DNA from: Leptolyngbya sp. SIO4C1 | GTDB taxonomy: Bacteria > Cyanobacteriota > Cyanobacteriia > Phormidesmidales > Phormidesmidaceae | Reading direction: 5' to 3' | DNA length: 32,114 nucleotides | NCBI GenBank assembly: GCA_010671975.1 | Contig: JAAHIA010000001.1 | Location: 1 to 32,114, forward strand | Shown: in pieces, positions 4,783 to 32,114 of the stretch | How positions within the stretch are numbered: position 1 is the stretch's first letter | How the letters are laid out: each line of letters starts with the position of its first letter | The notes under the pieces: model-generated | The model's database searches: none | What the model saw: the letters and a program-made list of their open reading frames with translations, nothing else | What the model was told of the DNA's origin: nothing | Made by a program: the position numbers and the translations under genes

Positions 4783-6033
4783 CTATGAGTCCGATGCGAT
4801 CGCAGAGGACGGATGAGATGCTGCGATCGCGCTGTCGGCCGCCGGAGAGTCGCCCTCCCTAACGCTGTGTCCGTCGACTAAAATGCGAGGCAGCCGATGC
4901 TTGAAGCCGCATAAGATCTCCCAGGAGATGGTTCCTAGCTGAGCCGCCCAATCGTCTGCTGTCACCTGCTGCGCGCCGCTGTGACCTAGCAGCGTGACCA
5001 CATCGCCGACCTGCAGTGCCGGTAGATCTGAGACATCGAGCATCAGCTGATCCATCGTAATAGCGCCAATTTGAGCGACTGAGCGCTGCTGGATCAGCGC
5101 CCGCAGCTGATTTGACAGTCGGCGCGGCACACCGTCTGCGTAGCCAATGCCAACGACGGCAATGCGCATATCGGTCGGGGCAATGAAAGTATGGCCGTAG
5201 CTGACGCCGGCCCCGGCTGCTAGAGCCTTGAGATGGGTAATGCGGGCTTTAACAGCTAGCGCTGGCCGCAGATTGAGTATGCCGCTGAGGTGAGGCGCCG
5301 GCGATAGACCATATAGCCCCAGGCCCACTCGCACCATGTCATAGTGCAGCTGAGGATCGGCGAGCGTGGCTGCTGTGTTAGCAAAGTGCAGCTTGGGCGG
5401 CAGCAGCTGTGCCTGGCGCAGGCTGGCAATCGCTTGCTCAAAGCGTCGCTGCTGCGCCCGCAGACAGGTCAAATCTGGGCTATCTGCCGTTGCCAGGTGC
5501 GAATAGAGGCTAACTACCCGCAGCGCTGGCAGCTGCGCCACAAAGCTGGCAAACTCGACCGCCTGACGCCAGTCATAGCCCAGTCGCGACATGCCCGTAT
5601 CCAGTTTGAGATGCACCGGCAGTACGGCTGATTCAGACTCAGCCGACAGCGTTTCGGCAAAGATGAGCGCCTGCTTGGGTGAAACGATGGTAGGCTGCAG
5701 CTGCCAGGCAGCAACCGCTCGAATTTCTGCCGGATGATAGACCGCCCCCATGATTAAAATAGGCGCTTCAATGCCGGCCTGTCTGAGCTCAATCCCTTCT
5801 GGAACCGTTGCAACGCCTAGCCAGCTAGCCCCAGCGGCCAGGGCTGTTTGAGCGACGCGGGTAGCGCCGTGTCCATAAGCATCCGCTTTGACAACCGCCA
5901 TCAGTGCTGTCTGCGGTGCTAGACCAGCCTTAAACTGACGGACGTTGTGCCGAATAGCCGCAAGGTCAATTTCTACCCAAGCCCGAGAGCACCGCATCGG
6001 CAGTAGGGCTGGCATCTGGTCCCAATTGAGCAT
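4783..6033 (-). CDS. alr: Alanine racemase
   Basis: PLP-lysine motif AVVKADAYGHGA, LHFANTAATL, DMVRVGLGLYGLSP, VGIGYADGVPR. Confidence 0.95.
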   Translation of the reverse strand: MLNWDQMPALLPMRCSRAWVEIDLAAIRHNVRQFKAGLAPQTALMAVVKADAYGHGATRVAQTALAAGASWLGVATVPEGIELRQAGIEAPILIMGAVYHPAEIRAVAAWQLQPTIVSPKQALIFAETLSAESESAVLPVHLKLDTGMSRLGYDWRQAVEFASFVAQLPALRVVSLYSHLATADSPDLTCLRAQQRRFEQAIASLRQAQLLPPKLHFANTAATLADPQLHYDMVRVGLGLYGLSPAPHLSGILNLRPALAVKARITHLKALAAGAGVSYGHTFIAPTDMRIAVVGIGYADGVPRRLSNQLRALIQQRSVAQIGAITMDQLMLDVSDLPALQVGDVVTLLGHSGAQQVTADDWAAQLGTISWEILCGFKHRLPRILVDGHSVREGDSPAADSAIAASHPSSAIASDS

Positions 6034-17771: not shown

Positions 17772-18728
17772 CTATGCCCGCCGCTCTTGATAGGCTGCAT
17801 AGACTGCCTGCACGTTGTACCAATTTAAAAAAATTCGCGCTAGCTCTTGAGAAAGCTGCGGCTGCCCTCTCTGAATTAGCCACTGCAGCAGCGGTGCCAT
17901 GGTGCGCTCATTGAGCCGTCCGCCTAGCGACAGCAGCCCCCACAGCAGCCAATGCAGCGGCGTCATCTGAATCATCATCCGCACGTCAAAAGTTGGATGC
18001 TTCTCATAAAAGACAACGCCCATTCTAGCCCGCTGAATTTCTTTATCAATTAGCTCGGGCAGCTCGTCAATTGAAAAGGGCGGATGCCAGTGATAGCCGA
18101 CCGCTGCTGGGCATTTGACCAGCGTCAGTCCCAAATTTTTGAGCCGCACGCCCAGCTCTAAATCCTCCCAGCCATACTGCGTAAACTGCGTATCAAACAG
18201 CCCTGCTTTGAGCAGCCAGCGCTTTGCGATCGCCACGTTGCCGGTTGCAAAAAAGGCTTGAGAATAGTCGGTTACCTTAAACGGCTCGGCGGTCGGATCT
18301 GCGAAGTTGCACGTGTTGACCACACGACCGTAGGTAAAGACGCGGTGATGCCCGTGGATTTGCTGAAACCGGCTGAGCGCATCGGCATGGTGCTGCAAAA
18401 AGTCCTCTAGCACCACCAAATCGCTGTCGATAAAGACAATCGTATCGCCTTGAGCCTGCTCAACCCCAAAATTACGAGCCGCTGCTGCCCCTTCATGCGA
18501 TCGCTCAAATAGCCTTACGTGAGCTAAGCTGGCTGATTTCAACCAGTCTACGGTGCCATCAGCTGAGCCGTCATCGACAACGATGATTTCATAGCCTGCC
18601 ACCTGCGTATCGCGCGAAAACACTTGCCGCTCCATCGCCTGCAGGCATTTTTCTAAAATCGGCTTGCGGTTGTAGGTAGGGATGACGACGCTGAAAAACA
18701 CGGCTTTTTCTGAAGAGAGCGACTTCAA
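17772..18728 (-). CDS. Glycosyltransferase family 2 protein
   Basis: FSVVIPTYNRKPILEKCLQAME, EIIVVDDGSADGT, GAAAARNFGVEQAQGDTIVFIDSDLVV, GWEDLELGVRL. Confidence 0.93.
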   Translation of the reverse strand: MKSLSSEKAVFFSVVIPTYNRKPILEKCLQAMERQVFSRDTQVAGYEIIVVDDGSADGTVDWLKSASLAHVRLFERSHEGAAAARNFGVEQAQGDTIVFIDSDLVVLEDFLQHHADALSRFQQIHGHHRVFTYGRVVNTCNFADPTAEPFKVTDYSQAFFATGNVAIAKRWLLKAGLFDTQFTQYGWEDLELGVRLKNLGLTLVKCPAAVGYHWHPPFSIDELPELIDKEIQRARMGVVFYEKHPTFDVRMMIQMTPLHWLLWGLLSLGGRLNERTMAPLLQWLIQRGQPQLSQELARIFLNWYNVQAVYAAYQERRA

Positions 18729-21833: not shown

Positions 21834-22841
21834 ATGCAGCTCAATATTCAGCTTGATCTATCTTCTGAACAAGTGCAGCATCAGCTGCTGGCCGGGCTAG
21901 ATAGCTGGGTCAGGCTGGGGCTGCTATCAGAGTCGCAAATTCGCGAGCTAGCAGCTACTCTCAGTGAGCCGGTACCAGCCGTGCAGCCAGCCGCGCCGAT
22001 GACCGACTTTGTCAGCACTACACCAGCAGACGAGGCAGCTGAAGACTCTTCTGAAGATTTATTTGAACCTGTTCGAGCAGCGTTTAGCTGGCTGTCGCTG
22101 CGATCGCTGCTAGATGAAATCAGCGTCATCTGGCTGCTGTTCTTGGGCGTGTTTCTGGTTGTGGTTTCCTCGGGGGTGTTAGCGGCTAGCCAATGGCAGT
22201 CTTTCTCACCCGTTGGGCAGTATGCCATTTTGTTCACCTACACACTGGCCTTTTGGGGCGCGAGCGTCTGGGCGCAGCGGCAGGCGCACTTGCAGGCAAC
22301 CAGTAGAATGCTGGCACTGACAGCGCTACTGCTGATTCCCGTCAACTTTTGGATGATAGATGCGCTGAGCGTTTTGAGCTCTCTGCTGGGCTTGGGGCTT
22401 GGCGGTTTAGCTGCGATAGTGCTCACGGGTCTGCCGTTTAAGCTGCTGACGCATCGCTCTAATACGCTCAATCTAGTGGGCCTGAGCTGGCTGCACTGGG
22501 GCTGGGGCTGGCTGAGCTGGCCGCTGATTGCGACTTACCTGGGCACGGTAGGTACAGCGGCTAATCTCACCTATCAAGATCGCTATCAAGATCAACGCTC
22601 GGGGTCAGCAGAGGTAGCAGCGCCTTCCTCCTCACCCGCGCTGTCGTTTGACGGGCTGACGGTCGCGCTGGCAGTTTTGATCTTGCTGGTGCGCAGCTTG
22701 CTAATTGTGCAGGTGCCGCCGCACCAGCTGGGTCTGGCCGCCGGGCTGTGCGGCTGGCTGCTGGTTTGGCTGACTCGCCATCAGCCGGCGCAGGCGGTCT
22801 GGGGCCTGCTAGAGCAGCGGTGCGGCTGTGCAACAGCCTGA
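21834..22841 (+). pseudogene. Multi-TM protein (DUF2157-like N-terminus), apparently truncated at the breakpoint
   Basis: Acidic N-terminus (QLLAGLDSWVRLGLLSESQIRELAATL) followed by many TM segments. The reading frame ends with QRCGCATA, encoded by the inverted cphA-derived 39-mer. Confidence 0.6.
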
Positions 22842-22846
22842 TAGAT
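22808..22846 (+). repeat. 39-bp perfect inverted repeat, copy 1 (at the gene-truncation junction)
   Basis: gctagagcagcggtgcggctgtgcaacagcctgatagat is the exact reverse complement of 23018-23056. Confidence 0.97.
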
Positions 22847-23017
22847 GCCCTGGCCGAACTGAATCATGGCTCTTGCTCGCAGCGGCATCCAAGGAATGCC
22901 GCGATTTTCAGCTTCTTTGACCAGCGTTTCAGTGCTAGGCCCTAGCGAGGCCTCTGCTGCTAGATCTTGCAGGTCGCTGAGATCTTGAGCCAGCTCGCTG
23001 TCTGGATAGCGTCCGGT

Positions 23018-23056
23018 ATCTATCAGGCTGTTGCACAGCCGCACCGCTGCTCTAGC
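23018..23056 (-). repeat. 39-bp perfect inverted repeat, copy 2 (inside cphA codons ~126-138)
   Basis: atctatcaggctgttgcacagccgcaccgctgctctagc, encoding ARAAVRLCNSLID on the minus strand. 171-bp spacer to copy 1. Confidence 0.97.
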
Positions 23057-23677
23057 TGCATAGCGCCCGGCTTGCTCATTGCAATATTCGAAGACGACCT
23101 GGTAGACGCCTGACTCAGCCGTAGCCTGGGTCCGGCCAAAGCTCACCTCCATGCCGGCTAGCGTTTGCAGCTCTAAAGCTACATGCTCAACGACATGCCC
23201 TAAGTAGGTGCCGGCGCGAACCCGCTCCAAGAAAGTTTCAGCTCGATCGGCTGAGCAGTAGTGATCCCCTAGACTTGGCAATGCTTCAACCAGCCCCTCA
23301 TAAAAGTCAGGAATTTTATTTGAGGGGCGATCTTCTAGATCGGCTAGATCTAAGCGAATCACAATCAGGTTGCAATGTTCGATGCTCCAATAGTTCGGGC
23401 CTCTGAGGGTGAGCGTCTTAAGGATCTTCATAGTCGAGAAGTCTAGATGGAGAGGTCTAGGAAAAGGAACGTGAGCAGGCGTTACCGGCTGGGGTCAGCT
23501 GAGCAGCGCAGCAGTCAGTGCAAGCAGGCCAATAAAAGCGGCTAGACATTGAAAGTTTAGAAGTTTCAGCCGCTAAAAATAGCAGCCCTAGTCTTTTAGG
23601 GTATCTCGAGACTTGCTTTAGATCTCATTTTCCCAAAGCATGAAATCGCGATTTGCTCAGCGTGAACGCCAAAAAGA

Positions 23678-24535
23678 TCAGCTAGATGCTGGCGAATGTA
23701 GCAGCTGCTGCTGCTTGAGATCGTAACGATCGCCATGAACCAGGATGTGAACTTTCAAATTGTGAATGCAGAGGGGATCGCTAGCACCAACGGCGCGCTG
23801 ATTGGTATGAGAGACCTGCGTTGGATCAATGACGGTAACGGTGCCTTTGCCAATCACTTGAAAGACGCTGCTGCTAGAAAAGCAGGTGCAAGTGTCTTCG
23901 TCGATGCCGATACCGATGCGGTCGGGCTGTATTGCGATCGCGCTCATCAGCCGGGCCATGCGATTGCGATTTTGAAAATGCTGATCGACAATCACCTCGG
24001 GTAGGATACCAAGCCCTGTGGCCATATCGACTAGCGAGCGATTGGGCGATTCACCACTGCCGCCGCCGGCAATCATATGCTCCCCCATCACGGCTGCACC
24101 GGCGCTGGTACCGGCCAGCGCAATGTCGCCTGCCTGTGCTCGGCGGCGAATGTTGTCAATCACTGGGGTATCTGCTAACAGTCCGCAGAGGCGCACCTGA
24201 TCGCCGCCGGTCATAAAAACGCCGGTACAGTCCTCCAAGTAGGTTTGCCAAAGTGAGTCCTCACCCTGGGAGCGCTCGCGAATGTCTAGAATGACGATAG
24301 ACTTTGCGCCCATATCTTCAAAGATGCGTCGATAGCGATCGGCCGTAGCAACAGGCTCGCGCGACGCGCTGGGAATGATGGCAATGCGGGCATCGCGACC
24401 GCCGCTGGCATCAAAAAACGCGTATAAAATTTCGCGCCCGTGAACTTTGTCTTCAGCACCGCCAATAACTAAAACCGATGTGTGGGGGGAAGGCGTCATC
24501 CTCTCCTCAGCTTGTCGAAACTCTACTTGTTGCAT
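23678..24535 (-). CDS. cphB: Cyanophycinase
   Basis: VLVIGGAEDKVHGREILYAFFDASGG, GVFMTGGDQVRLCGLL, ALAGTSAGAAVMGEHMIAGG (nucleophile GTSAG), DQHFQNRNRMARL. Confidence 0.95.
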   Translation of the reverse strand: MQQVEFRQAEERMTPSPHTSVLVIGGAEDKVHGREILYAFFDASGGRDARIAIIPSASREPVATADRYRRIFEDMGAKSIVILDIRERSQGEDSLWQTYLEDCTGVFMTGGDQVRLCGLLADTPVIDNIRRRAQAGDIALAGTSAGAAVMGEHMIAGGGSGESPNRSLVDMATGLGILPEVIVDQHFQNRNRMARLMSAIAIQPDRIGIGIDEDTCTCFSSSSVFQVIGKGTVTVIDPTQVSHTNQRAVGASDPLCIHNLKVHILVHGDRYDLKQQQLLHSPASS

Positions 24536-31576: not shown

Positions 31577-32114
31577 CTAACCTTCGTAGTCGTAATAAGG
31601 ATTAACCCGTCTGGGCCTAACCACCGGTGGTGGCAAAAATTCCTGCTCATAGTAGCGATAGGAGGGCGGTGACGGCATTTGCATAGGCGGATATATGACC
31701 TGTGATCCTCGCTCTCGCCGCTGAGACTGAGCTGAAAACACAATCAGGCAAAGAATCAGACCGCCTCCGCCTAGAACGATGACTAGCAGCAGGCCACCGC
31801 CCATCCACAGCAGCGCCGTTTGACCGCCTGAGCGCGGCTCGGGAACCGGGCGCTGAGAAGCTTGTAGCGATAGCGTGTCGATTGAGTGCTGATAGCTATT
31901 GAGCTGAGCGAGGACTTGCTGCATCTCAGCCTGCTGCTGCTGCAGCCGATCTTCCAAGTTGCCGGCCAAAAGCTCTTGCTGAGCCAGCTGATTTTCTAAG
32001 CGACTGGTAATCTCTCGCTGCCGCTCGAGCTCGCGACGCAGCTCATCGCTGTAGTCGGGGGTCGGTACCTGGGGCACCGGCACAGCCGTTGCTTCAACCG
32101 CTGCGCGCTCTGGC
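31577..32114 (-). CDS. Hypothetical protein with coiled coil and one TM segment; 5' end beyond the window
   Basis: RRELERQREITSRLENQLAQQELLAGNLEDRLQQQQAEMQQVL coiled coil, ALLWMGGGLLLVIVLGGGGLILCLIVF TM. Frame stays open to the window edge. Confidence 0.65.
   Translation of the reverse strand, partial: PERAAVEATAVPVPQVPTPDYSDELRRELERQREITSRLENQLAQQELLAGNLEDRLQQQQAEMQQVLAQLNSYQHSIDTLSLQASQRPVPEPRSGGQTALLWMGGGLLLVIVLGGGGLILCLIVFSAQSQRRERGSQVIYPPMQMPSPPSYRYYEQEFLPPPVVRPRRVNPYYDYEG

Follow-up and report, generated by a model that had tools for sequence, protein, structure and literature searches.

In the stretch of DNA analysed here (the window; 32,114 nt of Leptolyngbya sp. SIO4C1, contig JAAHIA010000001.1 of assembly GCA_010671975.1), two convergent genes, cphA and a multi-TM gene, break off against each other at a short inverted copy of cphA sequence. 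This raises the question whether the junction belongs to the chromosome or originated during sequencing and assembly. A first-pass annotation of the sequence had considered both a FoSTeS/MMBIR-like double template switch in vivo and a chimera from amplification or assembly; it had also allowed for native cphA carrying the inverted segment, and had proposed to look for the missing 3′ parts of both genes in the same assembly. In this study, the inverted copy was found to be almost certainly a laboratory or assembly artefact and not a real feature, because the rest of cphA, fitting exactly at the break, is located on another contig and the same kind of fold-back is present on other contigs.

By direct comparison within the window, positions 22808-22846 match the reverse complement of 23018-23056 at all 39 nt, with 171 nt between the exact arms. 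The extended pair (22808-22849 and 23015-23056) comprises 42 nt with 98% identity. About 2e-15 such 39-mers are expected by chance in the window, so that the pair is far above chance. A search of the window for inverted matches of at least 18 nt with arms at most 3 kb apart revealed this as the sole pair with separate arms; the other match, at 656-689, was an imperfect palindrome whose arms overlap. On the minus strand, the junction consists of GGCATCTATCA, followed by GGCTGTTGCACAGCCGCACCGCTGCTCTAGC and then by AGGCCCC, while native cphA on contig C362 (see below) continues from GGCATCTATCA into AAAG. The middle piece GGCTGTTGCACAGCCGCACCGCTGCTCTAGC corresponds to the cphA plus strand at 23026-23056, and the preceding word ATCTATCA is common to both sides. 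The microhomology amounts to 8 nt, a value that refers to the cphA fold-back switch only. The coordinates of all features are given in Table 1. The cphA strand with the chimeric end also has a high hairpin potential (z −2.6), which was rejected as independent evidence since the fold contains the copy itself.

Table 1. Features at the junction in the window and fold-backs at the ends of other contigs of the same assembly (G000).
Sequence	Feature	Position	Strand	Evidence or remark
Window	Multi-TM (DUF2157-like) gene, 5′ part, cut by the junction	21834..22807	+	54% identity over 328 residues to a relative in G003; frames of relatives 1271-1906 aa
Window	Putative chimeric insert, inverted copy of 23026-23056, 31 nt past the shared word	22808..22838	-	Not in native cphA of C362
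Window	Shared word ATCTATCA at the fold-back switch	22839..22846	-	Also 23018-23025 on +; comparison of C362 1-140, window minus strand and window 23015-23080
Window	cphA (cyanophycin synthetase), native 5′ part, residues 1-198	22839..23431	-	Pfam PF18921, E 5e-46; identity with C362 2-113; joined protein vs 7wac
Window	Native source of the inverted copy	23018..23056	+	cphA codons 126-138; exact reverse complement of 22808-22846
Window	Cyanophycinase-like gene (peptidase S51, cphB), upstream of cphA	23678..24535	-	PF03575, E 2e-27; intact, unaffected
L035 (C6)	Fold-back at contig end	1-417		Arm 80 nt
L112 (C34)	Fold-back at contig end	1-81		Arm 28 nt
L114 (C36)	Fold-back at contig end	10939-11026		Arm 39 nt, 10-nt loop
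L146 (C184)	Fold-back at contig end	1-227		Arm 21 nt
L153 (C268)	Fold-back at contig end	1-415		Arm 51 nt

The assembly of the window comprises 5.3 Mb in 848 contigs (98.5% complete, estimated contamination 3.4%). For the native continuation of cphA, window positions 22500-23400 were used as query against this assembly. Bases 2-113 of contig C362 (L005) are identical to the window from 22950 to 22839 (112/112 nt). At base 114, where native cphA resumes outside the window, C362 diverges into AAAGCGCATTCAGGCAACG, encoding IYQKRIQATLS, and the frame stays open until the stop codon at 2208. When window 23431-22839 is followed by C362 114-2208, 895 codons form a single frame without stop. The joined protein of 895 aa aligns end to end with PDB 7wac (about residues 1-896), and the join at residue 198 shows no gap. 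A full-length CphA with the N domain, the ATP-grasp and the Mur-ligase-like parts in one frame is obtained only from window plus C362, the window alone encoding residues 1-198. The 5′ part of cphA is single-copy in the assembly and present in the window only; C362 is therefore its continuation, and the continuation within the window is aberrant. The single 5′ part also excludes a second, truncated cphA copy, which had been considered as a candidate. Both C362 and solved CphA sequences (VNQKKIQATLS) continue directly across the switch point, without an insert. This rules out a natural repeat in cphA and contradicts the possibility, raised in the first-pass annotation, that the inverted segment is native to the gene in this lineage; the probability of that reading is close to nil.

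On the other side of the junction, the reading frame of the multi-TM gene happens to stay open until a stop codon at 22841. Its similarity to the relative in G003 holds up to residue 318, and its DUF2157 similarity is below the Pfam cut-off; the family with this weak similarity is poorly described. With the sequences of two relatives as queries, the second half of the gene was not found in the own assembly; nine relatives with the front half were tested with the first of these queries, and it detects the second half in each, in eight of them at E < 1e-20. The absence of this part places the junction at the edge of an assembly gap, and was counted in favour of a chimera, as it is expected at a coverage gap. 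In relatives, cphA and the multi-TM gene are not neighbours and lie, for example, about 250 kb apart in G002.

Most of what the first-pass annotation had described at this locus was correct: the exact inverted repeat with its 171-bp spacer, the source at cphA codons ~126-138, the truncation of both convergent genes (in our analysis, 198 of 895 residues are left of cphA and about 325 of the multi-TM gene, vs 1271-1906 aa in relatives), and a fold-back switch at a short shared word with a second switch into the multi-TM gene. The word at the cphA switch had been recognized, but its extent had to be corrected, as according to C362 the next G is already part of the copy. The proposed search for the missing 3′ parts was successful for cphA and without result for the multi-TM gene.

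Fold-backs were also searched for in 88 readable contigs sampled from the same assembly (0.99 Mb), as exact inverted matches of ≥20 nt located at most 1.2 kb apart; contigs reading as N (13 own and 10 control contigs) were left out of the counts. Seven inverted words were found, five of which reach the terminal base at the start or end of a contig, with arms of 21-80 nt and spacers of 10-313 nt. One of the others is the window junction, and the remaining pair, of 21 nt in C47, contains the word GCGATCGC, which is common in cyanobacteria. In addition, C47 starts with an inverted copy of the end of its neighbour C9 (shared word CCGTAGT, 7 nt) and C10 with an inverted copy of the end of its neighbour C148 (shared word TTCTC, 5 nt), so that seven of the 88 readable sampled contigs besides the window carry a fold-back (five terminal and two derived from a neighbour). 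When ends were compared with the interior, inverted words of 21, 51 and 80 nt were present at three of 160 ends, and none longer than 13 nt in 840 interior stretches. None of the 59 readable ends of the control assemblies G004 and G005 showed a fold-back, which carries little weight as only about one to two would be expected at the rate of the own assembly. Since fold-back copies recur at contig ends, fold-back chimeras are a property of this data set and represent assembly-wide artefacts.

These observations also bear on the two readings that place the rearrangement in living cells. A double template switch of the FoSTeS/MMBIR type may have interrupted cphA together with the multi-TM gene, which encodes a large membrane protein, and the inverted 39 nt would be its scar, either fixed or in some copies of a polyploid chromosome, with C362 representing unrearranged copies. 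Such an event would leave a short templated inverted insert between two breakpoints and microhomology, as seen at the cphA switch with the 8-nt shared word, and the missing second half of the multi-TM gene is compatible with it. However, it would need to be present in the genome, whereas the assembly contains the unrearranged continuation of cphA, to which no 5′ part other than that of the window corresponds; the same fold-back form occurs at contig termini, which cannot be separate chromosomal events ending exactly there; and the two genes are not adjacent in relatives. An event in vivo, be it fixed or confined to some chromosome copies, thus retains little support and is very unlikely, and this part of the first-pass annotation was not upheld, in contrast to its reading as an amplification or assembly artefact, which the in-register continuation in C362 and the contig-end fold-backs support. 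Alternatively, one strain of a mixture might have a rearranged cphA while a near-identical strain supplied C362. The fragmentation of the assembly and its estimated contamination would suit such a mixture, but the overlap is identical throughout, a second cphA 5′ part is found nowhere in the assembly, and the contig-end fold-backs would be left unexplained; we consider the chance of this slimmer still.

Chimeras formed during phi29 amplification are inverted in 85% of cases, mostly join sequences from nearby and share 2-21 nt (Lasken and Stockwell 2007, PMC1855051). In a larger short-read study, overlaps were mostly 5-8 nt, the distance peaked at 250-300 nt, and chimeric molecules comprised two or more parts (PLoS One 2015 reanalysis, PMC4595205). 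The junction and the other fold-backs resemble such MDA chimeras in the inverted joining within a few hundred nt, the short words, the composition of two or more parts and the large number per data set. The inverted copy lies 171 nt from its source, within the <10 kb typical of this class, and the word shared at the switch, delimited by comparison with native C362, has 8 nt; unrearranged sequence is present in the same data on the cphA side, and seven further contigs point to many independent chimeras per library. The measurable shared words of 8, 7 and 5 nt (window, C47/C9 and C10/C148) and the in-contig spacers also fit the values for phi29. Unlike phi29 chimeras, which were seen in reads, those described here are known from assembled contigs. 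Similar reads can arise by library end repair from partial single strands (PDSM model, PMC10908179), and this type resembles the junction in that the chimeric reads carry inverted copies of sequence close by, where inverted repeats occur; PDSM chimeras, in contrast, are local soft-clipped reads in human libraries, and PDSM alone would not explain the second join, to another locus. MDA is only favoured over library preparation, by roughly two to one.

From the sequence comparisons, we put at roughly 0.93 the probability that the junction is an in-vitro chimera, MDA-like or from library end repair, which was incorporated into the contig by a short-read de Bruijn assembler. Exact 126-nt overlaps of contig ends (C19/C362, C10/C148, C58/C8, C316/C8 and C1/C138) indicate an assembler of this kind with k=127. 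For the origin of the chimera, we infer a polymerase step and a choice made by the assembler. During strand-displacement amplification (MDA), with library end repair as the less likely setting, a free cphA strand end with ATCTATCA would have paired with its complement on a strand close by, at a distance of about 170 nt, and been extended by ~31 nt of inverted cphA sequence. A second switch would then have linked the cphA copy to DNA of the multi-TM gene; the reverse course, beginning in the multi-TM gene, could also yield this product. The assembler would have taken the chimeric path instead of the native one, so that true cphA would run from window 23431 to 22839 and on into C362 114-2208, and the true remainder of the multi-TM gene would lie in an unassembled gap. 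The native sequence that starts before 22951 and reaches C362 base 127 is in no contig of the assembly; that the chimeric path prevailed suggests very low depth at the junction.

Some points were counted against the chimera. The second switch, into the multi-TM gene, has no native counterpart for comparison, and molecules with two switches are rarer than those with one. Also, the first base of C362 is T where the window has G at 22951, just before the 112-nt identity. Similar first-base differences from the overlapped neighbour, before a 126-nt identity, occur at base 1 of C19 (L030) and where the window end (31989-32114) overlaps C138 (2-127); these mismatches probably stem from a peculiarity of the assembler or mark where another chimera begins.

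The junction matters as quality control and not as biology. If it is a chimera, both gene truncations on the contig are false, and so is the neighbourhood of the multi-TM gene and cphA. As a noticeable share of contig ends carries fold-back copies, truncated genes and contig-end inverted repeats in this assembly should not be read as biology.

Some further irregularities were observed at contig ends and elsewhere. Extra bases precede the overlaps at the starts of C58 (34 nt) and C36 (59 nt), for which no convincing source was found in the assembly. C56 (L134) contains a perfect 94-nt head-to-tail duplication at 5046-5233, which could be real or another assembly fault, and tandem repeats near contig ends are present in C112 (L140; ~83 nt, 17969-18271) and C20 (L048; ~90 nt, 9-272).
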